Part shown: piece by piece, positions 14,158 through 36,067 of the stretch | Position numbering within the stretch: position 1 is the stretch's first letter | Layout: each line of letters opens with the position of its first letter | Source of the DNA: Alphaproteobacteria bacterium | GTDB lineage: Bacteria; Pseudomonadota; Alphaproteobacteria; Rickettsiales; SXRF01 | Assembly: GCA_025360605.1 (NCBI GenBank) | Contig: JANYBV010000006.1 | Location: 1-40,783, forward strand | DNA length: 40,783 nucleotides | Reading direction: 5' to 3' | Notes under the pieces: model-generated | Told to the model about the DNA's origin: nothing | The model's input: the letters and a program-made list of their open reading frames with translations, nothing else | The model's database searches: none | Position numbers and translations under genes: made by a program

Positions 14158-14185
14158 GATTCGCCCCCGCAACCAGAAAAGTTAC
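14158..14185 (-). promoter_or_regulatory. SigF-type promoter for msrB
   Basis: On the minus strand GTAACT (14185-14180), a 16-base spacer and CGAATC (14163-14158). The spacing and flanking T and G are the same in four other promoters in this window. The start codon of msrB is 37 bases downstream. Confidence 0.8.
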
Positions 14186-14193
14186 ATCATAGC

Positions 14194-14748
14194 ATGAACG
14201 ATCAGGATACCGATTTCAGCGCCCTGATGCGCCAGTCCCTCGCGGGGGACAAGCGTGCGTATGCCACGTTGCTGTCGGAAACTTCGCGCCTGCTGAGGCC
14301 ATTTTTGTCCAAACGCCTGAACCATATGAACGAAGTGGACGATGTGCTGCAGGAAATCCTGCTGTCCATCCACAAAGCCCGCCACACCTATGATGGCCAG
14401 CGCCCCTACAAACCGTGGGCCTTCGCCATCGCCAAATTCCGCCTTCAGGACCATCTGCGCAAGCATTATGCCGACCAGCTGCGCCATAGTTCGGAACTGT
14501 CTGAGGCGGATGATTTTTCCCTGCAAAATAGTGCTGCGGGCGATGTAACCTTTTCGGGCATCAGCTTCGAATCCATTAAGAAGGAGATCGACCAGCTACC
14601 CACCAAGCAGGCGCAGATCCTGACATTAATGCACCATGAGGGATACACATCGAAGGAAGTGGCAGATAAAATTGGCATGAAGGAATCGGCCGTGAAAGTC
14701 GCCGCCCACCGTGCCTACAAATTGCTAAAGAAAAGGTTATCAGACTAA
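14194..14748 (+). CDS. sigF: ECF sigma factor, SigF-like
   Basis: A 184-aa ECF sigma factor. Region 2 spans about 25-90 (YATLLSETSRLLRPFL, then VDDVLQEILLSIHKARHTYD and PWAFAIAKFRLQDHLRK). Region 4 spans about 130-182 (IDQLPTKQAQILTLMHHEGYTSKEVADKIGMKESAVKVAAHRA). It is followed one base later by an NrsF-like membrane anti-sigma factor, the arrangement known for SigF of Caulobacter, which responds to metal and oxidative stress. The start at 14194 is chosen because the frame upstream runs through the msrB promoter. Five promoters with one motif in this window are its likely targets. No such motif lies before sigF itself. Confidence 0.85.
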   Translation: MNDQDTDFSALMRQSLAGDKRAYATLLSETSRLLRPFLSKRLNHMNEVDDVLQEILLSIHKARHTYDGQRPYKPWAFAIAKFRLQDHLRKHYADQLRHSSELSEADDFSLQNSAAGDVTFSGISFESIKKEIDQLPTKQAQILTLMHHEGYTSKEVADKIGMKESAVKVAAHRAYKLLKKRLSD

Positions 14749-15383
14749 TGGCGAACGTGGACGCACTGATTGAACAACTCTCTGCTAAGGCCGCTCCGGT
14801 GGCGCAGGCACGCCATCCCTATGTTCAGTGCCTGAAATGGGTGACGGGGTTTGCTGTCTATCTCGCCTTTCTGGTGTGGGTGTTCCCAATGCGCCCCGAC
14901 CTTGCACAAAAACTGCAATCCCCCCTGTTTGTGGCCGAGCTTGCTGCCCTCGCCCTTGTCAATGTCACCGCCGCCCTCAGCTGTGCGCTGTTGGGTTTCC
15001 CTGACCTGATGCAGAAAAAAGCATTAACTTTTGCACCACTGGTGGCGTTTATCGCGTTTGTCGTAATCATGCTGCTGGCGTACCACGCAGATTCACCGCC
15101 CGCTCCCGCACCCGAACATGAAATGCTGTGTACGCTGTGTATTACACTGTTTTCTCTGATGCCGGCGGCATGGTTGTTTGCCAGCATGCGTAAAGCCGCC
15201 AGCACCCATGCCGGACTCTCCGGTTATATCGCCACGCTCTGCGCCTTCAGCATTGGCGGGCTGGTGCTGCGCCTGTCGGAACAAACCGACTCCATCAGTC
15301 ACCTGCTGCAATGGCACTATATCCCGATGCTGCTGATGAGCATGGCGGGTATCGCGCTGGGTAAGCTCCTGCTGAAATGGTAG
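14748..15383 (+). CDS. nrsF: NrsF-family membrane anti-sigma factor (DUF1109)
   Basis: A 211-aa integral membrane protein with six predicted helices (for example VTGFAVYLAFLVWVFPM, FAPLVAFIAFVVIMLLAY, HYIPMLLMSMAGIALGKLLL). The layout and length fit DUF1109/NrsF, which holds SigF at the membrane and releases it under stress. A Cys pair in MLCTLC (about residues 126-129), just before the fourth helix, is a candidate metal or redox sensor; NrsF is thought to act through conserved cysteines. The ATG overlaps the sigF stop by one base, so the pair is co-translated. Confidence 0.85.
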   Translation: MANVDALIEQLSAKAAPVAQARHPYVQCLKWVTGFAVYLAFLVWVFPMRPDLAQKLQSPLFVAELAALALVNVTAALSCALLGFPDLMQKKALTFAPLVAFIAFVVIMLLAYHADSPPAPAPEHEMLCTLCITLFSLMPAAWLFASMRKAASTHAGLSGYIATLCAFSIGGLVLRLSEQTDSISHLLQWHYIPMLLMSMAGIALGKLLLKW

Positions 15384-15392
15384 CCTGCGGGT

Positions 15393-15420
15393 GTAACTAT
15401 CCGTCCCACCGCTGCGAATC
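15393..15420 (+). promoter_or_regulatory. SigF-type promoter for the DUF1223-msrB operon
   Basis: GTAACT (15393-15398), a 16-base spacer and CGAATC (15415-15420), 28 bases before the DUF1223 start. Both boxes are the same as in the msrB promoter at 14158-14185. Confidence 0.8.
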
Positions 15421-15447
15421 ATAGGGTAGAACCTATGGAGTTATGGT

Positions 15448-16158
15448 ATGACGCTACGCACCCCTGCCCTGTTGACCTTACTGGCGACCCTTGCACCCAC
15501 ATCCGTTGCCTATGCACGCCCTGTGGTTCTGGAACTCTACACGTCGCAAGGCTGCTCGTCCTGCCCGCCAGCCGATGCGTTGCTTAGGGAACTGGCGAAA
15601 TCCCCCGATGTTCTTGCCCTGTCATTCCATGTGCATTACTGGGATTATCTCGGCTGGCACGATCCGTTTGCCGCTGAACAAAATACTAAACGGCAATACC
15701 AATATGCCCATAGCCTGCACCAGAATTCGGTATTCACGCCGCAGATGGTCGTCGACGGCAGCTTTTCGGCTGTAGGCAGTGAACGGGGCGAGGTCGGTGA
15801 TGCGATCGCACGCGCCCACAAGGATATGACCGATATACCCATCACTTTCACCACCGATACAACACGCCGGATGTTGAATATCCACATTGCTGCCGGAAAA
15901 AATACCGGAAAGGATGCCGGTGTCTATGCTGTGCGTTACCGTAAACACACCAGTACGGACGTAACCAGCGGTGAGAACAGTGGCCATACGCTCAATACCG
16001 TGAACAGTGTACTCGAAATGACCCGACTGGGCACTCTTGAACCGCACGAGAGCGATTTTCATTTTCCGCTACCCGAATCACATAGCGATGGAATCGCTAT
16101 TCTCGTGCAAAATGATAATGCCGGCCCTATCCTGAGCGCCGGCTCCTATGCTAATTAA
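15448..16158 (+). CDS. DUF1223 thioredoxin-like periplasmic protein
   Basis: A 236-aa secreted protein. Residues 1-23 are a signal peptide ending AYA. The DUF1223 domain follows with VVLELYTSQGCSSCPPADAL, so C36 and C39 form a CSSC redox pair in a thioredoxin-like fold. A second conserved block is VHYWDYLGWHDPFA and VFTPQMVVDG. The family is of unknown function, but a thiol-disulfide role beside an MsrB is plausible. GGAG lies before the start. The second msrB begins 14 bases after its stop, and both depend on the promoter at 15393-15420. Confidence 0.85.
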   Translation: MTLRTPALLTLLATLAPTSVAYARPVVLELYTSQGCSSCPPADALLRELAKSPDVLALSFHVHYWDYLGWHDPFAAEQNTKRQYQYAHSLHQNSVFTPQMVVDGSFSAVGSERGEVGDAIARAHKDMTDIPITFTTDTTRRMLNIHIAAGKNTGKDAGVYAVRYRKHTSTDVTSGENSGHTLNTVNSVLEMTRLGTLEPHESDFHFPLPESHSDGIAILVQNDNAGPILSAGSYAN

Positions 16159-16172
16159 CCATGGAGGATGCA

Positions 16173-16562
16173 ATGGCTGACACGAACAAAAAAGAATGGC
16201 AAACCTGCCTGACGCCTCAGGAATATGAGGTATTACGCAAAGAAGGCACCGAACGTCCGTTTTCCAGCCCGCTAAACGACCTAAAGGCAAGCGGCACCTT
16301 TGTTTGCGCCGGATGCGGCCTACCCTTGTTTACCTCGAAACAAAAATATAACAGTGGCACCGGATGGCCAAGTTTCTTTGACACGGTCGCCAGCAATATC
16401 GCTACTAAAACCGATACTAAAATCGGTATGGCCCGCACGGAATACCACTGCGCAGGCTGTGGCGGCCATCAGGGCCACGTCTTCGAAGACGGACCGGAAC
16501 CCACCGGCCTGCGCTACTGTAACAACGGCGTGGCGCTTAAATTTATTCCCGATGAATCCTGA
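16173..16562 (+). CDS. msrB: Cytosolic methionine-R-sulfoxide reductase B
   Basis: A 129-aa MsrB without a signal peptide. Zinc cysteines are C45/C48 (CAGC) and C93/C96 (CAGC); catalytic Cys116 is in GLRYCNN; substrate-binding SGTGWPSFF is at about 61-69. It repairs methionine-R-sulfoxide in proteins, using thioredoxin. The start at 16173 is set by GGAGG at 16163-16167; the ATG at 16161 overlaps that site. It is the second gene of the DUF1223 operon. Its exported relative is encoded at 13606-14121, so both compartments have an MsrB under one regulon. Confidence 0.93.
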   Translation: MADTNKKEWQTCLTPQEYEVLRKEGTERPFSSPLNDLKASGTFVCAGCGLPLFTSKQKYNSGTGWPSFFDTVASNIATKTDTKIGMARTEYHCAGCGGHQGHVFEDGPEPTGLRYCNNGVALKFIPDES

Positions 16563-16604
16563 TATCTTTTACTAGCGTCAGCTGATTTCAATTGCTAGAT
16601 TGGA

Positions 16605-16624
16605 AATGCCTTTTGCAAGGCATT
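16605..16624. other. Perfect hairpin after msrB
   Basis: AATGCCTT, loop TTGC, AAGGCATT: an 8-base perfect stem with a 4-base loop. No T-run follows, so it is not a standard terminator. It could stabilise the msrB transcript end. Confidence 0.35.
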
Positions 16625-16654
16625 GGTTGACAAATATTTTTAATGGATGGGCAC

Positions 16655-16996
16655 ATGGGTGGTATTTTCAAATATCTGTTAGCAGGATTGTTTGCGTTTG
16701 CATCCTATAACGAATTCGTGATGATGCACCGTGACTCTGCTTTCGGTGAGCTGGCTTCCCACTCAGATAAAGCTGCGGTTGAAAATGCTGTTGGCGAGAG
16801 CCAGTTCAGCTTTCACTGCGGTGCGAACGAACAGCCGCTTACGTTCCTGCCTTATATCGACAGCCTGTGCAAAGATAAAGTTGAAGAAGTGGGTGCTTAT
16901 GCACTGTGTCGTATCCCGATGCGTTGCCATGGCTGGTATTATGTCGGCTTCGATCACAACGGTAAGCTTATGAACAAATATAAACTCAACAATTAA
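16655..16996 (+). CDS. Small exported protein of unknown function
   Basis: A 113-aa protein whose first 20 residues look like a signal peptide or membrane anchor (GGIFKYLLAGLFAFASY). The mature part has four cysteines (FHCG, SLCK, ALCR, MRCHG), which could form two disulfides, and ends with an aromatic WYYVGFDHNGK segment. I do not recognise the family. ATG codons at 16643 and 16655 are both possible; the later one has the purine-rich GGATGGG before it. It lies between msrB and the glycosyltransferase cluster, with no clear operon link. Confidence 0.55.
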   Translation: MGGIFKYLLAGLFAFASYNEFVMMHRDSAFGELASHSDKAAVENAVGESQFSFHCGANEQPLTFLPYIDSLCKDKVEEVGAYALCRIPMRCHGWYYVGFDHNGKLMNKYKLNN

Positions 16997-17030
16997 TATA
17001 TGGCGTTTAGTATCTCTCAATCATGACGCT

Positions 17031-18890
17031 ATGAATGTAAAATCAACCTCACAGCACCTGATTAAACATAGTTTCGTTTATGCGCTATTGTGTGCATTTA
17101 TTTTTTTCTGGTCACTGCATTTCCTCGCGCTGCCAAAAATCATCGACAAAACGGTCGAACGCATCTCCAAAGAAAAACCGCATGCCATCCTGTTCCCGCA
17201 CGCAATGCCTGATTTCTGGAATCCATGGAATGTTCCTGACAACATGCCCGCAGATTACCTGTATACCATCACCATTGACTATCAGGCACTCCAACAGACG
17301 CGTTTTTATCTCTATCCCACCGGATGTGTTGATCAGATAACACTCAACGGCACCCCAATAAACTACGACCATAAACCGAGCTGCAGCCGTGACGGAGGAT
17401 TTGCGATTGATCTGGCCCCCGCCCTGAAGACGGGTCAAAACACACTCAAAATCACCCTGTCAAATGCACGTGTATTCCATCACTCCCGCGGATGGGATGC
17501 CGCCACCTATGGGCTGGATTTCGGCTCACTATTATATACGCCGCAAAATTTTGGATTATCCAGTATTCTGAGCTTATTGCTCATTGCCTCTATCTGTGCC
17601 GCAATCATCTCACTTCTTAAACACTTCACCGGCGAATATATCAGCGGGGCACTGGTCTCCGGCGGGCTTTTAATGTACCTGCGGCAGGTAAAACTGACGA
17701 GTTATATGAACTACGTCATCGATATGCCAAGCCACCTGCATTACATCTGCTACATAGCTACGCATGGATTCCCCCCCAAACCCATGGAAGGCTGGGAATA
17801 TTACCATCCACCGCTCTATTATGAGATTGGCGCAAAAATTATGCTATGGTGCAACTGGCTGGGCAGTTTCGACGCGCTGAACATGATACGGCTTTTCAGC
17901 GTGGCATGTTTCATGGTGTGTATTATTTTCTGTACGCTGATACTCAGGCGCATAATCAGTAATCCCCTCGCCTACTATCCGGTGCTCATCATGCTGCTGT
18001 TTTATCCCAGCAGCGTATATTACGCGCCACGCATTGACTCGCACATGCTGCTATATTGTTTCTATGCCGGATGCCTGTATTTCCTGATGCGCTGGATACT
18101 GGAAAGCCGCCCGCTATTTCTCTGGCTAGCGCTGGTGTGTTTTGGTTTAGGAATCGCCGCCCGCTCCAACGCGCTGGTGCTGGCTCCCCTGATTGGTCTC
18201 GCCGGTCTATATCAGCTTGCAACCAGACGGTTTGTTTTTTCCCAGATTCTGTCATTCGGCATGACCATTAGCCTGTGCGTCATCGCGTTTGGATTATTAC
18301 ACAATTTTGGCAGAACAGCCCATTTTCACGAAGTGGATCACAACGCTACGCCGTATGTGGTGGGCAATATATCCAACATCGACCAACGGCAATATATTCC
18401 CAATAACATTGAAAATTTTCTATTTCTCAATACACAGCTATTATTCAACCCTCCTTTTCTTGATTGGTGGCATGATAATACCGGCCGTCAATATTTCTGG
18501 AACACCGTCTTAAAAACATCCCTTTTCGAACATTTTGGGTGGCGCTCTCTCTTGTTCGCCAAAAGGGTGCTGGCACTACTTCTGGCCTCCATCGCCTATA
18601 TCTTTACCAGCCTGTGCTGGATGCGGATCGCCAAACGTAAGGAATGGAATATGTGTAGCGTAACACTGCTTGTTTCCCTGATTATGCTGATGGCCAACCG
18701 CTATAACAATCCTTACGCGCCATCGCAGGATTTCCGTTACATATTCCCGTCTATCACCGGATTTTTAGGCATGATCGGATTGGTCATCGAACAGCATCTG
18801 GCGCGCCGGCAATATAAAAGCGGGCTTTTGGGTATCATTATCGTACTTTGGTTTTCCTTGTCATCCATAGGTTTGATCCTCGCCGGATAA
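17031..18890 (+). CDS. Multi-pass membrane glycosyltransferase (GT39/PMT-like)
   Basis: A 619-aa protein. After one N-terminal helix (about 15-33), residues 45-165 form a soluble insertion with a beta-sandwich look. Ten or so further membrane helices follow. The segment DMPSHLHYICYIATHG, then WEYYHPPLYYEI, has the acidic/His motif before a periplasmic loop expected for GT-C enzymes that use polyprenyl-phosphate sugars. The acceptor is unknown. It starts a cluster of four glycosyltransferase genes on the same strand and is likely to act on cell-surface glycans. Confidence 0.65.
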   Translation: MNVKSTSQHLIKHSFVYALLCAFIFFWSLHFLALPKIIDKTVERISKEKPHAILFPHAMPDFWNPWNVPDNMPADYLYTITIDYQALQQTRFYLYPTGCVDQITLNGTPINYDHKPSCSRDGGFAIDLAPALKTGQNTLKITLSNARVFHHSRGWDAATYGLDFGSLLYTPQNFGLSSILSLLLIASICAAIISLLKHFTGEYISGALVSGGLLMYLRQVKLTSYMNYVIDMPSHLHYICYIATHGFPPKPMEGWEYYHPPLYYEIGAKIMLWCNWLGSFDALNMIRLFSVACFMVCIIFCTLILRRIISNPLAYYPVLIMLLFYPSSVYYAPRIDSHMLLYCFYAGCLYFLMRWILESRPLFLWLALVCFGLGIAARSNALVLAPLIGLAGLYQLATRRFVFSQILSFGMTISLCVIAFGLLHNFGRTAHFHEVDHNATPYVVGNISNIDQRQYIPNNIENFLFLNTQLLFNPPFLDWWHDNTGRQYFWNTVLKTSLFEHFGWRSLLFAKRVLALLLASIAYIFTSLCWMRIAKRKEWNMCSVTLLVSLIMLMANRYNNPYAPSQDFRYIFPSITGFLGMIGLVIEQHLARRQYKSGLLGIIIVLWFSLSSIGLILAG

Positions 18891-18968
18891 CTATTCGTAT
18901 TGTAATTGCGCCCTTGCGCTATTAACGTAAGCTGCTGACTTTTTTGAACCCGCCTGTACGTTAACCCT

Positions 18969-23240: not shown

Positions 23241-23309
23241 AAAAAAATCCTTGCTAAAAATTCCTGCGGGCAGACGCGCCACCCGCAGGAGAGTGGGAGA
23301 GAGTTCTAA

Positions 23310-24866: not shown

Positions 24867-26447
24867 CTAGGAAGCCACGCCTGCACCAGCTTCAAGAGCC
24901 TTACGGGCTTTATTAATAGTGCTTTGAGTGTATCTTATTTCGTTAAATACCAGCATATCGGCCCCAGATTCTGGTGTGGCCTTATCGAATAATTTTCTGT
25001 CCAGCGCCAGCCGGTACAGCTCACGCATATCTTCAACAATCGTATCTTTTTCAGCAATCACTGCTGGTTGCGGATAAAAATTATCTACCTCAATCATCAC
25101 CCGAAGCAATTTATTGCGCAAGAGAATCAGCTTCTCCTGCTCATCTGTTTCCAAATTTGCATTGGTAGGGTTGTGCAGGCGTTTGACCACATTAAAGCGG
25201 AGTATAGGTCGGTTCACCACGGTAAACTCACCTTTAGCGAGCGCTTTGTCATGTTCCTGCTGAAGAAGCGGCAGGTAATGGATATCAGAGAAATCAGAAA
25301 GGGATTTGCATAATAGCTTGCACAAGCGGCGCGAACCACTTTGCGGATTCAGCGGCTCGGTATTGTTGATACGTGCGGCTTCTTCAAAAATGGGAAGAAA
25401 TTCGTGGAGCCGCGCCTGCTCGTTGGGATACACAGTGCTATCCAGATGGATCATCGTTTTAAGCGATGCAACATATCGCGCCATGGCCGCCTGACCAAAA
25501 AACGGATCGTCCGGTTTGCGATTATCCGGATTCAGCAACAGCTGATCGTCAAGCGGTAAGGAGGAAATCGTTTCCTGCCATTGCCGGACCATCTCTCTCT
25601 GCTGCGGATCGAGTGGTACATGCGCGCCCCAGTTATTCATCAACGATTCGGCGAAGGAAATTTCATCTATCACATGTTGCTCCATCGAACGGTCCATGTG
25701 TTCATGTGTAATGAGGTTTCGCATATCAAATGCATGCACCAGCTCATGAATAGTCGTGGCTCCCCATTCAAACTTATCTTGCGTGTGCGAAGCAACTACC
25801 GTGCTGGAAGTGAGAAACATGATACCACTGGAATCAACATGCGGTGAACCCGCGCTTTGGGCATTACCTTCAGGACAAATCACGAAACGTAATCGCTGCG
25901 TGTCCGACACCAGCACGGCTTTAGGCAATCCATCCACATAATCTGCGGGCGCTATTTCTTCCGGTACCAGAAGCGTTTCTATCATGTCCTTTGAGGGAAA
26001 GACATCGCGCTGATTGCGATAGAGCGCTACCGTTTCCGGCTGGCGCGCAGCAATCTCGGCCGCCGCCCGAAGCATATTACGTTCGCTACGGTCATAGTGG
26101 CAGTGGTAATCATCGTGGCGCTCTTGTGCGGCCGTGTACTTAAGCTCGGCAATGGATTTACTGGCCTGAATTTTGGTCCAGCCAAAAGATTGCATCACTT
26201 TGCGTAGTGCGTCGTCACCGTCACGAAAAATAGTGAGGGGCACAATCGTCGCAATTGGCTTATTCAGCACCACCCCAAAACTGGCCGTCTGGTCTGCGTA
26301 TAAAAAAACCGACTGACGGTGAAAGACCGAATCCTCCAGCAGCAAATCGACCAGATTTTTTTTCGGCACGGCAACTACCGCCTCGGGCTTTGCCGAGGCT
26401 TTGAGTCTTCCTACATGCGAGGGCTTATCTGAAGAAACGTATTTCAT
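24867..26447 (-). CDS. Unknown protein with HELVH zinc-metallopeptidase motif
   Basis: A 526-aa protein that I cannot place in a family. It has ATTIHELVHAFDMRN, so His234, Glu235 and His238 form an HExxH zinc site; Glu263 or Glu267 in DEISFAES, about 25 residues on, could be the third ligand as in gluzincins. Upstream is a beta-rich segment (VDSSGIMFLTSST); downstream is about 250 residues of helical sequence. There is no signal peptide or membrane helix, so it acts in the cytoplasm or leaves by another route. It is transcribed alone, 7 bases after the convergent oxyR stop. Confidence 0.6.
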   Translation of the reverse strand: MKYVSSDKPSHVGRLKASAKPEAVVAVPKKNLVDLLLEDSVFHRQSVFLYADQTASFGVVLNKPIATIVPLTIFRDGDDALRKVMQSFGWTKIQASKSIAELKYTAAQERHDDYHCHYDRSERNMLRAAAEIAARQPETVALYRNQRDVFPSKDMIETLLVPEEIAPADYVDGLPKAVLVSDTQRLRFVICPEGNAQSAGSPHVDSSGIMFLTSSTVVASHTQDKFEWGATTIHELVHAFDMRNLITHEHMDRSMEQHVIDEISFAESLMNNWGAHVPLDPQQREMVRQWQETISSLPLDDQLLLNPDNRKPDDPFFGQAAMARYVASLKTMIHLDSTVYPNEQARLHEFLPIFEEAARINNTEPLNPQSGSRRLCKLLCKSLSDFSDIHYLPLLQQEHDKALAKGEFTVVNRPILRFNVVKRLHNPTNANLETDEQEKLILLRNKLLRVMIEVDNFYPQPAVIAEKDTIVEDMRELYRLALDRKLFDKATPESGADMLVFNEIRYTQSTINKARKALEAGAGVAS

Positions 26448-26508
26448 GCTTTAATTATAGCAAAAAATAGTTACGGCCTTATTACATCTAATTATTTATA
26501 TTTTATAG

Positions 26509-27264
26509 CTATTTACGCCGCCATACGCTGGCTTGGGTGATGATATATTCGTATTTCCGGCGATGCTCACGGATCATAAAGGGCAGCTCCTGCTGGTGCA
26601 GAAGTTCAAAGCCTGTGAGTATACGGGCAATGTCATCCAAACCCGACAGCCATTGGGAAGGCTCGGTATATTCCGGCAACCAGCTCAGCGGCGTCGTCAT
26701 CACCAATACCCCGCCGGAATTCAACAATGATCCCATACGTTGCAAACAACGTTCCGGATAGGGAAGACGACATAACACATTCGCCAGCAACACCGCATCA
26801 AAACCACCCAATGAAGGCGGCAAATTACATACATCCCCTTGCATAAAGTCTAATCGGTTGTGGTCAATGGAAGGGTCCACCTGCGCCGTGAGTGCAGCAT
26901 TCTCGCTGCCGGAAATTTTACACTGGTAATCATATTCACCGCTGTGCTTCAGCTGTTGCGCAACGGCAATAAATTCATGGCTGAAATCAATGCCCGTTAC
27001 GTGATCGAAATGGCGCGCCATTTCAAAGCTGGAACGCGCCACCGCACACCCAAGATCAAGCGCTTTGCTGCGCCCATTCGCGTAACGCAACACCAACTCG
27101 GCGCAGGTTATAGGCAGATTCACCACGTCAGGAAACGATACGCCTTTAGCCAGCGTCGCATCATACTGCTCTGCCGCCTGCCCCCAATGCATCAGCATAT
27201 AGCGGCCCAGCATCTCCTGCGATTCGTAAAGCGCAGGACCTTTAAGCACAGCGGCGGTACTCAT
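26509..27264 (-). CDS. OvoA C-terminal-type 4-mercaptohistidine N-methyltransferase
   Basis: A 251-aa SAM methyltransferase. Motif I is ALDLGCAVARSSFEMARHF (68-86), followed by VTGIDFSHEFIAVAQQL and FDAVLLANVLCRL. The end has SWLPEYTEPSQWLSGLD and PFMIREHRRKYEYIITQASVW. This matches the C-terminal domain of OvoA, which N-methylates 5-thiohistidine to give ovothiol. EgtD is unrelated in pattern. In most bacteria this domain is fused to the sulfoxide synthase; here it is a separate gene overlapping the synthase stop (ATGA). It is the second gene of a SigF-type operon. Confidence 0.8.
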   Translation of the reverse strand: MSTAAVLKGPALYESQEMLGRYMLMHWGQAAEQYDATLAKGVSFPDVVNLPITCAELVLRYANGRSKALDLGCAVARSSFEMARHFDHVTGIDFSHEFIAVAQQLKHSGEYDYQCKISGSENAALTAQVDPSIDHNRLDFMQGDVCNLPPSLGGFDAVLLANVLCRLPYPERCLQRMGSLLNSGGVLVMTTPLSWLPEYTEPSQWLSGLDDIARILTGFELLHQQELPFMIREHRRKYEYIITQASVWRRK

Positions 27265-28685
27265 ATTGCCTTCGGGCTTTCGCTAAGCGCCATACGGAAC
27301 CCTGCATGCTGGAAAAAATGGGGCCGAAAATGAAAACGCGCCCACTCGCTGGCCATATCGCCAGTGCTGATAAATGATCCGCCCATAATCATCTGATGCT
27401 CGCCGTCAAAACACGGCAGGCTGAAATCATCATAATAGGGATGCACCTCAAACCCCGCCAGCGGATGGAAATAATCCTCGCACCACTGCCATACATTCCC
27501 AAATACATCATGGAATCCTTTGCCATTCGGTGCAAACGCATCCACCGCGCATTCGCTGCCGCTGGAGAGATTCCAGTTAGCCAAAGGCGGCTGGCCGTCA
27601 CGCAGCGCAAGGTGTTCAGCCTCACTTAGCAAACGGTACGGCTGTTCGCTTTTTTCCTGTTCGGTTTTCCATGCACAATAGGCTTTAGCTTCATGAAAAT
27701 TGACGCACACGGGCCAGTGCATTGGAAGGTCTATCACTTCAAAAACAGTATGCAAACTATACTGGTGTAATCCGGCAGGCCCCTGCGGTATCCAGAAACT
27801 CGGCCATTTGCTGTTACGGAACCCGCGCCATGCCCAGCCTTCCTTGCTCCAGAATCGCGGGTTGGAGTAGCCACCCGCTTTCACAAAAGCAAGATAGTCT
27901 TTATTGCAGATCAGACGGCGTGAAGCGGAAAAAGCTTGCACACGGCGCACTTCATGGCCGTATTCATTATCCCATCCGAAGGTAGTAACATCGCTTGGTT
28001 TTCCTACCACCACATCACATTCCGTCATAGAAACCATGGTGTTTTCGGGCAACACATGCTGCGGCAACGTGACGTTCAGTGCCGGCCACTGGCTTGGCTT
28101 ATGCACCAATTCCAACGGCAACTCACGCATCAACACGCTGGAGGTTTCCAGATGGATACGCTCATGTTCGAACGCCATCACTAGCGCCCACATCGGGCTT
28201 TTGGGGGTGATTGGCATATGCTCATCATCAAGCAACGGATGGGTTTTAATCAGCTTGCGTAATAGCTGGTACACTTGCTTGCGATAGCCAACAACAGCTT
28301 CCACCGTCGGCCATATATCCTGACGTCCATCATACAGATCATCCCAGCGCATCTCGTCGACACCGGTTTCAAATAGCTTTTCAAATTCCGCATTCACCGG
28401 CGCGTCGAGAATACCGGCGACCCGTAGCTTGTTGACATATAGCGCCACCGGATGCCCATAGTAAAAAATCATCGGATGGCGGAGCTGGTGGTAAGGACGA
28501 CGGTAAAATGCCTCATCATTGGCAAGGCCGCCGAATAACATCTCGGTCAATGCCCAGCTATTCTCAAAATAATCAAGTATCGCATTGCGGCCTGCATTCA
28601 GGCGCACCTGCGGTTGGGAATGCAGAGTCATTTCGTCCACTATCGATGCGGCGGACTGATTCAATACAAGTGCGAGAGTAGTCAT
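27261..28685 (-). CDS. ovoA: 5-histidylcysteine sulfoxide synthase (OvoA N-terminal type)
   Basis: A 474-aa nonheme iron enzyme. An N-terminal DinB-like domain has LRHPMIFYYGH (His70) and EHERIHLETSS (His174, His178), the three iron ligands expected for OvoA. A formylglycine-generating-enzyme-like C-terminal domain has TFGWDNEYGHEV, GNVWQWCEDYF and GGSFIST, ending FFQHAGFRMAL. The enzyme joins cysteine to C5 of histidine with oxygen, the first step of ovothiol synthesis. Segments such as GVDEMRWDDL favour OvoA over EgtB. The methyltransferase part is encoded by the next gene. The promoter at 28728-28755 is SigF-type. Confidence 0.85.
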   Translation of the reverse strand: MTTLALVLNQSAASIVDEMTLHSQPQVRLNAGRNAILDYFENSWALTEMLFGGLANDEAFYRRPYHQLRHPMIFYYGHPVALYVNKLRVAGILDAPVNAEFEKLFETGVDEMRWDDLYDGRQDIWPTVEAVVGYRKQVYQLLRKLIKTHPLLDDEHMPITPKSPMWALVMAFEHERIHLETSSVLMRELPLELVHKPSQWPALNVTLPQHVLPENTMVSMTECDVVVGKPSDVTTFGWDNEYGHEVRRVQAFSASRRLICNKDYLAFVKAGGYSNPRFWSKEGWAWRGFRNSKWPSFWIPQGPAGLHQYSLHTVFEVIDLPMHWPVCVNFHEAKAYCAWKTEQEKSEQPYRLLSEAEHLALRDGQPPLANWNLSSGSECAVDAFAPNGKGFHDVFGNVWQWCEDYFHPLAGFEVHPYYDDFSLPCFDGEHQMIMGGSFISTGDMASEWARFHFRPHFFQHAGFRMALSESPKAI

Positions 28686-28727
28686 ACACGGCTCTTTGGG
28701 TTGAGGACGTTTGTTTTACACTACATT

Positions 28728-28755
28728 GATTCGCATGAAAACCATGTAACGTTAC
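28728..28755 (-). promoter_or_regulatory. SigF-type promoter for the ovothiol operon
   Basis: On the minus strand GTAACG (28755-28750), a 16-base spacer and CGAATC (28733-28728), 42 bases before the ovoA start. The -35 box is part of the palindrome GTAACGTTAC. Confidence 0.78.
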
Positions 28756-28852
28756 AAAAACACATAAACCGCCATCCCTTTGCTGAAATTAATTATTTTC
28801 AATCATTAGCGATAGTTTAAGGCGAATTTCTCGTAGGCACCAAAATCCATTT

Positions 28853-30211
28853 CTAATGTACAGACGCTGCACCCATTGCTTTTTGTAAACGTATAAAGGC
28901 AATGGCCGTAGCCGCTTTCTGGCTGATGAGTGCCAGCGTCGCCTGATCGAGTTCCGCCTGCGCGGTGGTCAGGTCGGTCATGTCCGTCAATCCGCGTACA
29001 AACCGTTTTTTAGCCAGCTTCACCGCATCACGGCGGTGGTTCAGCGCTTCACTCTGGCGGGTGACAGCATTAATACCATTGAGGTAATCCGATAACGCCG
29101 TCTTCACTTCCTGCAATGCCCCGAGTGTTGCATTCTCATACGTCAAAGCCGCCTGCTGCGCCCGCGCATCAGCTGAATCTACTGCACCATGCAACCGCCC
29201 AAAATTAAGCAGCGGCGCGCTCACACCCGATGCCAGCGACCAGATAGGGTTATCCGCCGCCAGCACCGCCCCCGAGGTTGCCTGTGCGCCGAAAAATCCA
29301 CGGATGGTCAGGCGCGGCCACAAATCCGCCTCAGCTGCATCCAGATTGGATTCCGCCGCCAGCATCTGCGCCTTGGCCGCGCGGATATCGGGACGGCTCC
29401 TGATCGTATCAATCGTCACATCGAGTGTTTTATCTGCCGGAGGAACGCTGAGTTCTTTCGATGGCTGCGTGGTTAGGAAGATATGCAGTTCACCGGACGA
29501 TTTGCCGAGCAGCTTTTCAATTTTGTATTCCGCCGCATCAAGCGAAGCCTGAGCCAGTGGCAATTGTGTGGCCGTCTGTGCGTATTCTGCCTGTGCGCGT
29601 TCCATGAAACTTGCATCAATCAGTCCAGCCTTGGCACGACTATGCAACAACTTCACCTGATCTTGCTGCGAGACCAGCAGGTCATTGGTTTCCTTGATCG
29701 TCTGGCGCGCCTGATGCCATTCAATGACCGCTTTCACCAATTCGGCAATCACGAAATTCTGCACATCCTGCACCGAGGCTTGGGCTGCGACTTCCTGATT
29801 TTCAGCACTATTGAAACGCGAACGCGTACGCCCGAACACATCAATTTCCCATGAGGCATCAAGCCCACCTTTGACAATGGATGATGCTTTGGATTGCCCT
29901 AACTGGTCATCACCGCGATTGGCTAACCCGCTGCCAAAAACATCAGGAAACCAGCCAGAGCGTGCCACGCGCACCTGACCACGCGCTTCATCCACGCGTG
30001 CCTGCGCAATTTTAATATCGATATTCTGTGCTAACAACTGATCGGTTAGTTGTTCCATCATCGGATCGTTAAACGGCTTCCACCAGCGGTTGGCACCCGC
30101 CACTGCCGGTGCCACCTGCGCAACCGTATGACGCATGGGCATGAAATCTTTGACCGTCTCGCAACCGGCAAGCAACAACGGCAGCGTCAGCAACAATACA
30201 TTACGGCGCAT
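28853..30211 (-). CDS. Outer-membrane efflux lipoprotein (NodT/TolC family)
   Basis: A 452-aa outer membrane factor. It opens MRRNVLLLTLPLLLAGCETV, a lipoprotein signal with lipobox LLAGC (lipidated Cys17). Two OEP repeats follow, with typical segments LLAQNIDIKIAQARVDEARGQ and LDASWEIDVFGRTRSRFNSAENQ, then VTIDTIRSRPDIRAAKAQ and a last AQAELDQATLALISQKA. It is the exit duct for the exporter encoded just upstream. The start at 30211 overlaps the adaptor gene by 11 bases; earlier ATGs would add a non-signal extension. Confidence 0.88.
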   Translation of the reverse strand: MRRNVLLLTLPLLLAGCETVKDFMPMRHTVAQVAPAVAGANRWWKPFNDPMMEQLTDQLLAQNIDIKIAQARVDEARGQVRVARSGWFPDVFGSGLANRGDDQLGQSKASSIVKGGLDASWEIDVFGRTRSRFNSAENQEVAAQASVQDVQNFVIAELVKAVIEWHQARQTIKETNDLLVSQQDQVKLLHSRAKAGLIDASFMERAQAEYAQTATQLPLAQASLDAAEYKIEKLLGKSSGELHIFLTTQPSKELSVPPADKTLDVTIDTIRSRPDIRAAKAQMLAAESNLDAAEADLWPRLTIRGFFGAQATSGAVLAADNPIWSLASGVSAPLLNFGRLHGAVDSADARAQQAALTYENATLGALQEVKTALSDYLNGINAVTRQSEALNHRRDAVKLAKKRFVRGLTDMTDLTTAQAELDQATLALISQKAATAIAFIRLQKAMGAASVH

Positions 30212-31124: not shown

Positions 31125-31125
31125 A

Positions 31126-31833
31126 TTACTCCCTATGTATAAAATCCTGAGGTTTAAAATCACCCATCATGCGGCCATCGCTCATCTCAAGGATGCGGTC
31201 GGCAAAATGGTAAATACGGTTATCATGCGTAACGATCAGCACCGCGCGTTGGCTATCATTGGCAATATCGCGCAAAATATGCATCACGGATTGTCCGGTT
31301 TTAGCATCGAGCGCGGCGGTCGGCTCATCGCACACAATCAGCTTCGGTTCATGCACCAGCGCACGCGCAATCGCCACACGTTGCTGCTGGCCACCCGAAA
31401 GCTGGTTGGGTAATTTTTCGGTGTGACCTTCCATGCCGATGCGATTAAGGATTCCGCGTGCTTTATTCACCGCCACCGCATCGGCCACACCTGCGGCAAT
31501 AAGCGGAAGCGCAGCATTCTCCGCTGCCGTAAGTGCTGGCAACAAATTATATTGCTGGAAAATGAAGCCTATATTTTCACGTCGTAAGATCACACGATCG
31601 CGGTCGTGCATGTGGGTAATATTTTTTCCCATCACCGTCACCTCACCGGAGGTCGTTGATAAAATTCCTGACAGAATAGAAATCAGCGTGGTCTTTCCAC
31701 ATCCTGAAGGACCAACGATCATGGTCAGTTCGCCCAAGCGAATGTCGGCAGAAATATCGTGCAACACGCGCACGAATTCATCCCCAACAGGAAAATCTTT
31801 ATTCACATTACGAACGGTCACTGCATCAGTCAT
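31126..31833 (-). CDS. ABC exporter ATPase (DevA/LolD-like)
   Basis: A 235-aa ABC ATPase. Walker A is GPSGCGKTT (41-49), Q-loop [12 protein letters not shown] (91-102), signature LSGGQQQR (145-152), Walker [13 protein letters not shown] (165-176), then H-loop VTHD. All motifs are intact. It powers the FtsX-type permease encoded before it. GGGGATG precedes the ATG at 31833, one base after the permease stop, so the start 42 bases upstream is unlikely. Confidence 0.92.
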
Positions 31834-31834
31834 A

Positions 31835-32974
31835 TCATCCCCTGAACACAATCGCCGGATCAAGCGTGAATACACGCCTTAAGCTGAAGATAATAGATAC
31901 AAGGATAATAAGACTGATCACAATGAACGTTCCCGCCATAACCTGCCATTGCAACACAAACCCTTTAAGTGCGGGCGCGTTGGCAGTGGCCTTGAAGAAA
32001 AATGCCGTCAAGCCAATACCCAAACTATAACCAATGCCGCCCACTACCGCCGCCTGCAACAACACCATGCGTAGCAATTGCCGGTTGGTCACGCCAATGG
32101 CTTTCATGGCGGCAAACTGTTTCAGGTTTTCAATCACGAAAATGTAAAACGTCTGCGCGGTGATCGCACCGCCAATGAGGATGCCGAGAAATACGGTGAT
32201 GCCAAAATTGATTGGGATACCGGTACGCTCCAGAATGTAATGGATGCTGCGCCATGCGAATTCATCTTGCGTCAGCGCCTGAAGATGCGTCTGGTCGGCA
32301 ATGCGTTTTTTGAGTTCATCAATATTCTGTCCCTTACGCGCTTTCACCAGCACGAACGGCATTTTGTTGCGCGTGGGCGGGGTGATGTCCATCGCGGTGT
32401 TGTAGGACACATACATGATCGGAAAGGTAAAAAACGTCGGCATCACATCGCAGACGGCATTCACCACAAGGCGGTTGTCGTTTAGCTCAATCTGGCGGCC
32501 CAGTTTAAATTCCTGTTTCGGCCATGTAAAAATATAGCCGTTCTTGTCGATCATTACTGACTCCGGTTTTTTGATCGTCAGCGGATCCCCCATGATCATC
32601 TTCGGGCAAATACCAACCATGCTCACATCATCAACCCCGATCAGTTGCACCTGCTGCGTTAGCCCGTCCGGCATACGGATAGTGGCAAGCCCCTTATAAA
32701 ACGGAACCGCCCATGCCACACCTTCCACCGAACGTACATTCGTCAGCTCGACATCGCGCATCGGCTCCACTTCCTCAATGTAACGCACACGCGTGTCCAT
32801 CACCCAGATATCGGCTTCGGACACGGTATAAATAGCACTCGCCGTGCGCGCCATCAGCCCGATGAAAATGGAGACCTGCTGTGCCATAAGCAACGTGGCA
32901 AACGTCACGCCGAAGATCAGCCCTACATATTTAGCGCGGTCACCCAGCAGCATTTTCAATGCAATCATTCGCAT
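31835..32974 (-). CDS. ABC exporter permease (DevC/FtsX-like)
   Basis: A 379-aa permease with one N-terminal helix (about 16-42), a periplasmic MacB-type domain (about 45-260) and three C-terminal helices (about 265-295, 310-340, 348-370), the last with FtsX-like SLRRVFTLDPAIVFRG. This is the DevC layout used by lipid or small-molecule exporters. It is the first gene of the four-gene export operon and is divergent from a TetR regulator. Substrate is unknown. Confidence 0.85.
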   Translation of the reverse strand: MRMIALKMLLGDRAKYVGLIFGVTFATLLMAQQVSIFIGLMARTASAIYTVSEADIWVMDTRVRYIEEVEPMRDVELTNVRSVEGVAWAVPFYKGLATIRMPDGLTQQVQLIGVDDVSMVGICPKMIMGDPLTIKKPESVMIDKNGYIFTWPKQEFKLGRQIELNDNRLVVNAVCDVMPTFFTFPIMYVSYNTAMDITPPTRNKMPFVLVKARKGQNIDELKKRIADQTHLQALTQDEFAWRSIHYILERTGIPINFGITVFLGILIGGAITAQTFYIFVIENLKQFAAMKAIGVTNRQLLRMVLLQAAVVGGIGYSLGIGLTAFFFKATANAPALKGFVLQWQVMAGTFIVISLIILVSIIFSLRRVFTLDPAIVFRG

Positions 32975-33040
32975 GGCAAAACAATCATTTCCTTAATTAT
33001 ATTATTTTGGATTCACGTGTTGCGTGATGGTGCATAATAT

Positions 33041-33086
33041 TGTACTATTGGGTACATTATCATCAAGATACTATACTGTACAGTAT
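33041..33086. promoter_or_regulatory. TetR-type palindromes before the exporter
   Basis: ATACTGTACAGTAT (33073-33086) is a perfect 14-base palindrome, 6 bases before the TetR start. TGTAC-N6-GTACA (33041-33056) is a second inverted repeat in the same divergent gap. Both are probably operators for the TetR protein, one near each promoter. Confidence 0.5.
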
Positions 33087-33092
33087 TATTTC

Positions 33093-33734
33093 ATGACAGC
33101 GAAAAAACCTATCTCCACCTCACGCAATCCAGCCGGAAGGCCCAAGGATTCCAATAAAAAACGAGCCATTTTAGATGCGGCTGAACCGTTATTTATCCAG
33201 CAGGGATACGAGCTTACCAGCATGGATGCCATTTCCAAGCTGGCGGGGGTATCCAAGCTGACACTCTACAGCCACTTTGCCCACAAAGATGACCTCTTCA
33301 AAGCGGTGATACAGCGCAAATGCGAGCAGTACAATATGCCGAGTACTTTCATGCAGTTGGCGGGGGTTCCTCTCGAAAAAGCCCTGACGCTTATTGCCAC
33401 TAATTTCCTGAACCTGATATACAGCAACGAAGCCATCCACATGCACCGCATCATTGAAGCCGAAGCCGTGCGTCATCCCAAACTGGCGGAATTATTTTAT
33501 CAAGCGGGGCCACAGCAGGTAAAAGCCGCGTTTCAGGAATTGCTCGCCGCATGGGTTAAACAAAAAAAATTACATATTCCCGAAATCCACCGCGCCTGCG
33601 ACCATTTCTTTTCACTGCTCAAAGGCGAGTGCCATTTCCATATGTTGCTGGGATTGCAAAAAGCCCCAAGTAAAAAGGAAAAAGATCTGCACATCGCCTC
33701 ATGCCTATGCGTATTTTTGAAAGCCTACACCTAA
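33093..33734 (+). CDS. TetR-family regulator of the export operon
   Basis: A 213-aa TetR regulator. The N-terminal helix-turn-helix is at about 22-70: AILDAAEPLFIQQGYELTSMD, then ISKLAGVSKLTLYSHFAHKDDLFKAV. The C-terminal ligand domain (80-213) resembles the AefR-type C-terminal family. The start at 33093 opens MTAKKPIST and lies just after the palindrome at 33073-33086. It is divergent from the permease and is likely to repress the exporter until a substrate is bound. Confidence 0.88.
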   Translation: MTAKKPISTSRNPAGRPKDSNKKRAILDAAEPLFIQQGYELTSMDAISKLAGVSKLTLYSHFAHKDDLFKAVIQRKCEQYNMPSTFMQLAGVPLEKALTLIATNFLNLIYSNEAIHMHRIIEAEAVRHPKLAELFYQAGPQQVKAAFQELLAAWVKQKKLHIPEIHRACDHFFSLLKGECHFHMLLGLQKAPSKKEKDLHIASCLCVFLKAYT

Positions 33735-33752
33735 GCAGAAAGGCCACCGACT

Positions 33753-34316
33753 ATGCAATGGCATGATGCCCTCTCCTTGTTCCATCACCTGCCGCACTCC
33801 TATCGCGACCTGCTTCATCATGAAGATAAGGCGCTGGTGAAAGCCGGAGCCAGTGGGCTGGTACGCACAAGCGATGCAGCACCGCTCATCGGTATTGAAA
33901 AATCTATCGACGCATCTATCGACCGCAACCAGCAGAATTTTGAACTACTGGTGAACGATTATCTGCGACAGCTACCGCACTATGTGCCTGAAACCGAACA
34001 GGCCGAACAGCTCCTGAAACATTGGCGCACCATTTTGCAGGAACAGCCAAGACGTTTGGCCGAAGCCCATCTCGATTCGCTCAATTCAGAGCATGCACGG
34101 AAATTTTGGCATGAACATCTGAGCCATTACCACACCGACCTCGGCGTTACCGCCGATCACTTTCCCGAAGCCATGATCGACTGGGAACGCGCCGCCGGAA
34201 ACCCGATGCCGCCGGTGAAGGTGCAGGGATTGATCAAAAGCAAGCAGTGGCAGGAGCTGGTATTACGCCAGCGCCTGCACAATCTTGACCTCGATAACAT
34301 GGGTATCAAGCGTTAG
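33753..34316 (+). CDS. Unknown cytoplasmic protein
   Basis: A 187-aa soluble protein opening MQWHDALSLFHHLPHSYRDLL. Helices dominate, with a notable number of His and Trp residues (for example HARKFWHEHLSHYHTDLG). No signal peptide, membrane segment or known motif is seen. It begins 18 bases after the tetR stop and may share its transcript, with AGAAAGG as the ribosome binding site. I do not recognise the family. Confidence 0.55.
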   Translation: MQWHDALSLFHHLPHSYRDLLHHEDKALVKAGASGLVRTSDAAPLIGIEKSIDASIDRNQQNFELLVNDYLRQLPHYVPETEQAEQLLKHWRTILQEQPRRLAEAHLDSLNSEHARKFWHEHLSHYHTDLGVTADHFPEAMIDWERAAGNPMPPVKVQGLIKSKQWQELVLRQRLHNLDLDNMGIKR

Positions 34317-34324
34317 GAATGATC

Positions 34325-34864
34325 CTAATCGTCCTGATTTTTACCATTGTCGCCATCAGCGGGACCATGATCTCCATGCGGGCCACCATCACGCGGAGGA
34401 TGCTCCGGACGTGCGAACAATCCCTTCGGTGAAGATTCGCAGGTAGCAGGCACCGAATCATGCCCTGGTGGATGAATCGTCACGGCATCGCCCTCTTTTT
34501 TGCCTTTGCAATCGTCATAGGCCTGCGGGGGCGGCTCATGCGGGGGGCGGCCTTCTGGTCCACCTTCTTCTGGTGGATGCTCTGGACGCGCAAACAATCC
34601 CTTTGGAGATTGTTCACAGGTTGCAGGCACCGAATCATGCCCTGGTGGATGGATCGTCACGGCATCGCCCTCTTTTTTGCCTTTGCAATCGTCATAGGCC
34701 TGCGGGGGCGGCTCATGCGGGGGGCGGCCTTCCGGCCCACCCTCGCTTTTGTGAGATGGCTTGTCATCCTGCGCTGCGCCTTGCGCATACGCTGTGGAGA
34801 AAGTAACGCCGACGGCCGTAGCCAGTAATGCGCCCGCCAGATATTTCAATCCTGCTCTTGCCAT
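34325..34864 (-). CDS. Secreted protein with two near-identical 59-aa repeats
   Basis: A 179-aa protein. Residues 1-27 are a signal peptide ending TAYA. Residues 41-99 and 100-158 are two 59-residue repeats, each opening EGGPEGRPPHEPPPQAYDDC, then GKKEGDAVTIHPPGHDSVP, ATCE and PKGLFARPEHPP. Each repeat has two cysteines and many Pro and His, so metal binding is possible. A Gly/His/Asp-rich tail follows (GGPHGDHGPADGD). Related AYxxC-KGKKxGD segments occur singly in other small secreted proteins I recall. A purine-rich ACAGGGAG lies before the start. Confidence 0.7.
   Translation of the reverse strand: MARAGLKYLAGALLATAVGVTFSTAYAQGAAQDDKPSHKSEGGPEGRPPHEPPPQAYDDCKGKKEGDAVTIHPPGHDSVPATCEQSPKGLFARPEHPPEEGGPEGRPPHEPPPQAYDDCKGKKEGDAVTIHPPGHDSVPATCESSPKGLFARPEHPPRDGGPHGDHGPADGDNGKNQDD
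34454..34732. repeat. 177-base tandem duplication
   Basis: Bases about 34454-34555 recur at 34631-34732, 177 bases apart, with one or two differences. They encode the 59-aa repeats of the secreted protein. The near-identity means the duplication is recent or is kept homogeneous by conversion. Confidence 0.85.
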
Positions 34865-34976
34865 ACAAACTCCCTGTGGTTAATTGCTCAAACGCGCTTC
34901 AATTTAAGAAGCGCATTATAAAACAACTAGCGTGTTTTTGGAAGAAAATAGAGCGTACAGCGACAATGAAAAACCG

Positions 34977-35330
34977 CTATATCGCCGCTTCGATCATGAT
35001 TTCCACATCGTATCCGGCGGCAGCAAGCTTCGCTTCCACCGTGGCGCGCGCCGGTGTTTTACCGGACACTACCCACACATCCCACGCCTGATTCATCTGG
35101 GCGAAGTTTTTGATGTCAGTGAGCCAGATGTTAGCTTTAATGATGCGCGTTTTATCGCTGCCTGCCTTGGCAAGAATGGCATCTATCTGCTGCAACACTT
35201 CTGTGGTTTGTTCCAGCACGGATTTACCCACCATGGCATCGGCAACGATACCGGCGGTATATACTTTCCCTGCATGAATAACGGCTTCGCTCATACGCGA
35301 GCCTGCTTCAATACGTTGTAATTCGCTCAT
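34977..35330 (-). CDS. ridA: RidA-family enamine/imine deaminase
   Basis: A 117-aa Rid/YjgF protein. The catalytic-type Arg is in PARATVEAKLA (about residues 93-103), with ANIWLTDIKNFAQMNQAWDVWV before it and a short C-terminal IMIEAAI. RidA proteins hydrolyse reactive enamines from PLP enzymes; some act as redox-activated chaperones. Length and motif are standard. AGGAG lies before the start. It lies downstream of msrA on the same strand, 64 bases after its stop, and may be co-transcribed. Confidence 0.9.
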   Translation of the reverse strand: MSELQRIEAGSRMSEAVIHAGKVYTAGIVADAMVGKSVLEQTTEVLQQIDAILAKAGSDKTRIIKANIWLTDIKNFAQMNQAWDVWVVSGKTPARATVEAKLAAAGYDVEIMIEAAI

Positions 35331-35394
35331 ATGATTCTCCTTGTGGTGATGTATGCGACAGCTACCTTACACCATCACATTCACTACACAAGCA

Positions 35395-35898
35395 CTAGCC
35401 AAGTTTCCAGTTGGGGCGGATGAAATGACAGGTATAGCCGTCAGGAATCCGCTTCAGATAATCCTGATGGTAATTTTCGGCAGGGTAGAACTGCGACGCG
35501 GGAGTCACCTCGGTCACAATTTTTGCCGGCCATTTACGCGAGGCCGTCATTTCCGTAATCAAAGTTTGTGCGGTTTCCTTCTGCAAATCATCAAGATAGA
35601 AAATCGCCGAACGATACGACGGGCCGATGTCATTGCCCTGACGGTTTTTGGTGCAGGGATCGTGGATCTGGAAAAAAAATTCCAGTAGCTTGCGGTAGGA
35701 AAGCCTCTCGTTATCGAAGATCACTTCAATGGCCTCGGCATGGCCGGTAACGCTTGACTTTATGATATCATAGGTGGGATTGGGTACGGTGCCCCCCGTG
35801 TAGCCAACGGTGGTATACTGAACACCGGTTAACTTTCGGATTAAATCTTCCATCCCCCAAAAACAGCCTCCGGCTAATAGTGCGCGCTCTGTTGTCAT
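35395..35898 (-). CDS. msrA: Methionine-S-sulfoxide reductase A
   Basis: A 167-aa MsrA. The catalytic Cys12 is in the family signature GGCFWG, followed by VGYTGG and later [22 protein letters not shown] and [18 protein letters not shown]. It reduces methionine-S-sulfoxide and complements the two MsrB enzymes in this window. The start at 35898 is set by the GGAG before it; the longer frame to 35955 would overlap the SigF-type promoter at 35937-35964. Confidence 0.93.
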
Positions 35899-35936
35899 TA
35901 TACGACTCCGTTCAGTAACTATTATGGTCATAGCAT

Positions 35937-35964
35937 CATTCGCATAGGCCGCCATAAAGGTTAC
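35937..35964 (-). promoter_or_regulatory. SigF-type promoter for msrA
   Basis: On the minus strand GTAACC (35964-35959), a 16-base spacer and CGAATG (35942-35937), 38 bases before the msrA start. It shares the divergent gap with the bufferin promoter at 36040-36067. Confidence 0.8.
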
Positions 35965-36039
35965 AGATGCTATACCGCCATTGTGTCAAACGTTAATTAT
36001 TACAGTTTTATACTCAATTATTTATTTTTGGTAATGGAT

Positions 36040-36067
36040 GTAACCAAAATCATAGCGTATGCGAATA
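36040..36067 (+). promoter_or_regulatory. SigF-type promoter for the bufferin operon
   Basis: GTAACC (36040-36045), a 16-base spacer and CGAATA (36062-36067). The start codon of the bufferin precursor is 140 bases downstream, so the mRNA has a long leader. Bufferin operons of Caulobacter are, as I recall, SigF-controlled. Confidence 0.72.

Follow-up and report, generated by a model that had tools for sequence, protein, structure and literature searches.

ECF16 systems and the sigF locus

Extracytoplasmic function (ECF) sigma factors of the ECF16 group have been described in Caulobacter crescentus (SigF and its anti-sigma factor NrsF, the prototype; PMC3511200), Bradyrhizobium japonicum (EcfF-OsrA; PMC3420878) and Brucella melitensis (BcrS-AbcS; PMC8315932). 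Here these systems, as far as the accessible parts of the reports describe them, are compared with a sigF-nrsF pair and its putative target promoters on a 40,783 nt contig of a member of the Rickettsiales (JANYBV010000006.1; the whole contig is referred to below as the window). The ECF16 target consensus is (T/C)GTAAC-N17-CGAA (PMC8315932). Promoters were mapped by 5′ rapid amplification of cDNA ends (5′ RACE) in Caulobacter, where the motif is GTAACC-N16-CGAA (PMC3511200), and in Brucella, where a −35 TGTAAC and a −10 GCGAAT or GCGAAA are separated by N16 (PMC8315932); primer extension was used in Bradyrhizobium, where the spacing is GTAAC(g,a)-N14-15 (PMC3420878). Chromate and cadmium, and not peroxides, paraquat or diamide, evoke a response of SigF in Caulobacter (PMC3511200), the Brucella system responds to hypochlorous acid (HOCl; PMC8315932) and the Bradyrhizobium system to H2O2 (PMC3420878). 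The Caulobacter targets include bufferin-type operons (DUF2282/DUF692/DUF2063/DoxX; PMC3511200), EcfF-OsrA controls three of five methionine sulfoxide reductases together with DsbD-like and thioredoxin-like proteins (PMC3420878), and the Brucella targets are the methionine sulfoxide reductase (Msr) system MsrPQ and a methionine-rich peptide (PMC8315932). The accessible text of the Bradyrhizobium report notes no ovothiol target, and that of the Brucella report neither an ovothiol nor a bufferin target.

The sigF gene of the window (14194..14748, + strand, 184 aa) encodes Sigma70_r2 and Sigma70_r4_2, thus regions 2 and 4 only as in the ECF architecture, and adjoins a DUF1109/NrsF gene (nrsF, 14748..15383, + strand, 211 aa; NrsF 128 bits), gene identities throughout being based on Pfam and NCBIfam profile matches. 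SigF is 31–35% identical in pairwise comparison to the Sphingomonas, Paraburkholderia and Rhizobium sigma factors encoded beside DUF1109, and the genome yielded no other Sigma70_r4_2 match. Five exact copies of TGTAAC-N16-GCGAAT, which fit the ECF16 target consensus, are present in the window, and we consider it highly likely that they serve as promoters for RNA polymerase containing an ECF16-type, NrsF-held SigF, as part of a genome-wide stress regulon of about eight operons. As the motif equals the published consensus, the motif and the Msr and bufferin targets are of an already known kind, as is the NrsF partner, whereas the link to ovothiol synthesis appears to be new.

Predicted SigF-type promoters in the window and the genome

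All five window sites are located just upstream of their predicted target genes and in the same orientation, and no exact match was found in 100 dinucleotide-preserving shuffles of the window. The site at 14159..14186 (− strand, with the −35 TGTAAC at 14186-14181 and the −10 GCGAAT at 14164-14159) precedes msrB1 (13606..14121, − strand; SelR 153 bits), which has a signal-like N-terminus with an RR motif, as judged by eye. On the other side of sigF-nrsF, the site at 15392..15419 (+ strand) precedes a gene for a DUF1223 protein (15448..16158, + strand; 207 bits) with a signal-like N-terminus, followed by msrB2 (16161..16562, + strand; 162 bits), which lacks one, again by eye. The remaining three are upstream of the ovothiol genes (28729..28756, − strand), msrA1 (35938..35965, − strand) and the bufferin operon (36039..36066, + strand). 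The distance between the −10 block and the start codon is 37 nt for msrB1, 28 nt for the DUF1223 gene, 43 nt for ovoA, 6 or 39 nt for msrA1 and 141 nt for bufA; the two values for msrA1 (35395..35931, − strand; 208 bits) arise because the first ATG of its frame (35955) falls inside the promoter, so that use of the promoter would place the translation start at 35931 or 35898. With two mismatches allowed, the window contained 35 matches vs 34.5 expected, which is chance level. A TGTAAC-N18-CGAAT sequence inside sigF (14544-14572) was discarded on account of its spacing and position.

The initial annotation had described five sites of identical spacing and regarded them as very unlikely to arise by chance; exactly five were recovered where none was expected, and the sites are real, with its numbering off by one base. 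Its placement of the sigF-nrsF pair next to the first two sites holds, this pair including the only ECF-type sigma factor found in the genome, and the Caulobacter motif it had named is as published (PMC3511200). The profiles also bore out its gene assignments, returning MsrB, ECF sigma factor, NrsF, DUF1223, a second MsrB, OvoA, MsrA and BufB, with BufA matching only weakly.

A genome-wide motif search, which the initial annotation had proposed, was done by pattern matching on the 2.68 Mb assembly (57 contigs, the window being contig C39). It identified six exact TGTAAC-N16-GCGAAT sites, the sixth (C13:168587-168614) upstream of a second msrA gene, the product of which has a signal-like N-terminus. 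The shorter pattern TGTAAC-N17-CGAAT occurs eight times, and the two sites beyond the exact six read TCGAAT, with T as first base of the −10 block, and are upstream of genes for a YceI protein (C8:48166) and a thioredoxin-NHL (Trx-NHL) protein (C13:291509). When the spacer was varied from N8 to N24, 8/21 matches had the N17 spacing and the other 16 spacings averaged 0.81 matches (Poisson P ~2e-6), with all spacings pooled showing no excess over the reversed-pattern control (21 vs 19). Each of the eight genomic sites is co-oriented with a gene start at most ~145 nt away. Four Msr genes were found in the genome (two PMSR and two SelR), and all are covered: three have their own site immediately upstream, and msrB2 shares the site of the DUF1223 gene, which it follows. 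Since three targets are outside the window, the predicted regulon of about eight promoters is genomic and not, as first described, local.

Recurrence in related genomes

We searched 16 genomes of the same family (G001 being only 55% complete) for TGTAAC-N16-GCGAA and TGTAAC-N16-HCGAAT, and by our own reading 33 of the 52 sites obtained were upstream of a regulon-type gene (DoxX, BufA/BufB, DUF1223, MsrB, MsrA, YceI, Trx-NHL, DsbD, FMN reductase or OvoA). Eight of these 33 are the window genome's own; for the 25 sites in relatives, 23 were assigned by tblastn against the window's protein or a Pfam-typed one, and two (DsbD and FMN reductase) by Pfam alone. The YceI gene is preceded by such a site in G009 (53% identity) and G010 (66%), and the Trx-NHL gene in G010 (60%) and G005 (56%). 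The promoter adjoining sigF leads into doxX and then an msrB1 homologue (~60–65% identity) in six relatives, and into msrB alone in G010, as in the window. The ECF16 motif, the sole ECF-type sigma factor found and the recurrence of the promoters before like genes in relatives support the SigF regulon that the initial annotation had put forward.

Twelve of the 16 genomes yielded an NrsF match, for G002 only below the cut-off, and G001, G003, G014 and G015 yielded none. These four genomes bear on whether the repeated element could be the operator of a classical transcription factor instead of a sigma factor promoter, as two short conserved blocks at fixed spacing would also suit a dimeric regulator. 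The two blocks show no mutual symmetry, their sequence and spacing equal those of mapped ECF16 promoters (PMC3511200, PMC8315932), and regulon-type genes are not preceded by a site in any of the NrsF-less genomes: G003 and G014 each have a single site, located elsewhere, and none was found in G015 or in the 55% complete G001. We therefore regard an operator as hardly credible, and treat the sites as SigF-type promoters in the following.

Two further genes of G010 have TGTAAC-N16-CCGAAT upstream: one for a Met/Cys-rich, signal-bearing protein that weakly resembles CopL, below the cut-off (L148 1030-1404, − strand), and one for a sigma factor that comprises regions 1.2, 2 and 4 and by eye resembles RpoH (L143 371-1300, − strand), with the sequence ~200 nt upstream. 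On a Sphingomonas paeninsulae plasmid (L189 965-5612), DoxX, DUF2282, a sigma factor, DUF1109, DUF692, a DNA-binding-domain protein and DUF1223 are encoded in one cluster, which supports DUF1223 as an ECF16-associated protein.

The predicted promoter upstream of the ovothiol genes

OvoA is encoded by two genes in the window, the N-terminal part being a 5-histidylcysteine sulfoxide synthase (27261..28685, − strand, 474 aa; TIGR04344 595 bits, cut-off 400; best solved relative 8khq) and the C-terminal part a putative 4-mercaptohistidine N1-methyltransferase (26509..27264, − strand; TIGR04345 206 bits, cut-off 170), both scoring above the cut-offs of these equivalog_domain models. The two genes (26509-28685, − strand) overlap by ATGA in different frames, and their counterparts in G061, G008 and G031 are fused (744–762 aa, stop to stop); as the halves are complete domains, the split reflects either true gene fission or one frameshift within the linker. 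General profile scans of the 20 window proteins recognised no OvoB, with no search aimed at OvoB having been made. The −35 of the ovoA site is within a perfect 12-base palindrome, TGTAACGTTACA (28745-28756, − strand), and an inverted TGTAAC/GTTACA pair also occurs at a site in G005.

A search for OvoA relatives (E up to 1e-60) was positive for six of 174 genomes of the order and three of 385 genomes drawn from the class, two of the latter already being among the six, and 79 further ovoA loci were taken from genome contigs. This gave 86 upstream regions, taken 5′ of the tblastn match rather than of an established start codon; the set includes two duplicates (L014 = L125, L048 = L124), four regions of <400 nt due to contig ends (L023, L029, L084, L128), one partial match (L091) and one weak match that is probably not ovoA (L092). 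These regions were scored with a position matrix trained on 31 of the 52 family sites, which were picked by their downstream genes, with the two ovoA sites held out and the other 19 omitted; since all training sites share these blocks by construction, the matrix mostly tests the TGTAAC and CGAA blocks and their spacing. The held-out window ovoA site scored 24.6 bits and that of G008, in another genus of the family, 25.6 bits, with all other regions at 6.8 bits or lower. A GTAAC-N16-CGAA sequence before ovoA of a Hyphomonadaceae metagenome-assembled genome (L085) was rejected, its spacing being one base short and its score of 6.5 bits within background.

In G008 (the genome of record CANHDY010000021.1, Rickettsiales bacterium), ovoA is preceded by TGTAAC-N16-TCGAAT and is located on contig 21, with nrsF on contig 47, so that gene neighbourhood does not account for the promoter that both ovoA genes share. 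Outside the family the association was absent: G031, G061, G035 and G526, which have both ovoA and NrsF, lack a site in at least 400 nt before ovoA, and G055 lacks one in the only 98 nt that are readable. The link is thus seen in 2/2 genomes within the family and 0/4 of the other ovoA/NrsF genomes examined, with G055 undecided. This distribution, together with a palindrome around the −35 that possibly has another origin, is what would be expected if the Msr, DUF1223 and bufferin sites were SigF targets and the ovoA site a chance or degenerate look-alike, with ovoA transcribed from another promoter. We consider this improbable, as the ovoA site is an exact match in sequence and spacing 43 nt before the ATG, of a kind that the window shuffles never produced, as the independent ovoA gene of the other genus has a similarly placed site unlinked to sigF, and as a simple consensus scan of 28600-28950 detected no sigma-70-like promoter.

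ECF control of ovothiol synthesis was undescribed in the titles and abstract openings of the best literature matches, a search largely outside subscription journals, in agreement with the initial annotation, to which the link likewise looked new. The predicted link between ovothiol and SigF thus appears to be novel, is supported by one independent genome and, in the data examined, is confined to the family. The gene downstream of those for ovothiol (24867-26447, − strand) encodes a 526 aa protein without Pfam or NCBIfam match that contains HELVHA, a possible zinc-metallopeptidase motif.

Control of sigF and the NrsF cysteines

The characterised ECF16 sigma factor genes are autoregulated, a frequent trait that does not define the group, with Caulobacter sigF having its own SigF promoter (PMC3511200) and autoregulation also reported for Bradyrhizobium ecfF (PMC3420878) and Brucella bcrS-abcS (PMC8315932). 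In contrast, a same-strand site of exact spacing within 330 nt was present at 0/15 sigF loci from the family and order, which suggests that SigF autoregulation is absent in this lineage and that basal sigF expression would be left to some other promoter. Instead, a SigF-type promoter close to the sigF start points away from the gene at 12 of the 15 loci; in the window, 7 nt separate the end of the divergent msrB1 promoter from the sigF ATG (14159-14194), and the distance is at most a few tens of nt elsewhere. A divergent target promoter at 7 nt from the sigF start could dampen SigF synthesis while the target fires. Three of the four named sigF loci, those of Sphingomonas, Paraburkholderia and Cupriavidus, have both same-strand and divergent sites, the Rhizobium record showed neither, and in G526 a same-strand site is likewise absent and the only divergent one is distant.

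Window NrsF has about six hydrophobic segments in a simple hydropathy scan. Two conserved cysteines, typical of the group though not treated here as defining it, are present in the characterised NrsF proteins, C131 and C181 in Caulobacter (PMC3511200) and C129 and C179 in Bradyrhizobium (PMC3420878) and Brucella (PMC8315932), and C179 of OsrA is required for the H2O2 response (PMC3420878). By alignment with G526 NrsF, the cysteines of which fall exactly at 131 and 181, window NrsF has CTLC at the C131 site and no cysteine at the C181 site, hence also no counterpart of OsrA C179. The first cysteine is conserved in 13 of the 15 NrsF proteins of the family and order examined, with CxxC at this site in 10 of the 13, and the second in 0/15 (G011 has a cysteine one residue off). 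All four aligned comparison proteins (G526, Sphingomonas, Rhizobium and Paraburkholderia) have both. Caulobacter-like sensing can therefore not be assumed, and because the second cysteine is missing, the details of the signal step are probably unlike those in Caulobacter and Bradyrhizobium.

The proposed circuit

We propose that SigF would be kept inactive at the membrane by NrsF until an envelope signal, which could be an oxidant such as hypochlorite, or copper or chromate, leads to its release. Free SigF would then activate both msrA and both msrB genes, the DUF1223 gene, the bufferin operon, the YceI and Trx-NHL genes and the split ovoA, and the combined response would join repair of oxidised methionine and metal buffering in the envelope to a low-molecular-weight thiol in the cytoplasm. 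Any benefit from ovothiol in such a response is suggested by its chemistry. Recognition by SigF is predicted from the identity of the motif to the mapped promoters of Caulobacter and Brucella and its similarity to that of Bradyrhizobium (PMC3511200, PMC8315932, PMC3420878), and the candidate signals are those of the homologous systems, namely chromate and cadmium, HOCl, and H2O2, respectively.

The putative bufferin operon comprises a weakly BufA2-like precursor (bufA, 36208..36465, + strand; 25 bits, below the cut-off of 60) and BufB, the MNIO maturase, fused to a DUF2063/BufC-type partner (36549..38252, + strand, 567 aa; MNIO_BufB 370 bits, cut-off 310). G007 has a stretch 78% identical to this fusion, preceded there by a SigF-type site and a bufferin precursor of its own. 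Association of NrsF, sigma factor, DUF692, DUF2063 and DoxX genes is known from bufferin clusters (PMC12452194); unlike in that survey, which in its accessible part places sigma/NrsF genes in Buf1 and not Buf2 clusters, it is a weakly BufA2-like precursor that has a SigF-type promoter here, ~20 kb from sigF. The presence of bufferin genes in the regulon, the CxxC at the NrsF C131 site in most aligned relatives that retain this cysteine (10/13) and the Caulobacter response to chromate and cadmium instead of peroxides, paraquat or diamide (PMC3511200) would also fit functional SigF promoters that serve mainly metal (copper) stress, with ovothiol acting as metal ligand and not as oxidant scavenger. 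Inclusion of all four Msr genes found, and the responses of homologous systems to HOCl (PMC8315932) or H2O2 (PMC3420878), make such a predominantly metal-directed role unlikely, while leaving it the most plausible of the alternatives considered here.

Several observations weigh against the proposed SigF regulon. All regulation described here is inferred from sequence, and the msrA genes of Caulobacter did not respond to sigF in microarrays (PMC3511200), in contrast to the sites found here for all Msr genes detected and, in addition, for ovoA. Relaxing the motif removed the genomic excess, with 13 vs 12 reversed-pattern matches at one mismatch, and 14 vs 13 control matches for YGTAAC-N17-CGAA; the signal resides in near-exact sites of fixed spacing. 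As their counts equal those of the controls, looser variants (5/13 one-mismatch sites beyond the TCGAAT pair, and 6/14 CGTAAC variants) were not taken as regulon members, and a few weaker targets may be missed by this strict definition. The excess in the family was only moderate (31 vs 22 control sites for TGTAAC-N16-GCGAA and 21 vs 8 for TGTAAC-N16-HCGAAT), 19 of the 52 family sites had no clear regulon gene downstream, and the four ovoA/NrsF genomes named above lack the ovoA site. Because the family counts are only modestly above control, it is the placement of the sites, rather than their number, that carries the case.

Beyond the regulon itself, the ECF16 circuit may, tentatively, have been rewired in this one alphaproteobacterial family by loss of the sigF autoregulatory promoter, loss of the known NrsF sensor cysteine with sensing moved to the CxxC at the other conserved cysteine, and recruitment of ovothiol as the cytoplasmic arm of an envelope oxidant and copper response.

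To our knowledge, the purpose of ovothiol in bacteria is poorly settled. If true, the proposed circuit would be the first defined control of bacterial ovothiol gene transcription by an ECF sigma factor, and the sharing of one regulon by ovoA, all Msr genes found and a copper-binding peptide would predict when ovothiol is made. In addition, the NrsF variants of this lineage, without the second conserved cysteine, would provide natural sequences for probing how this anti-sigma factor family senses its signal.

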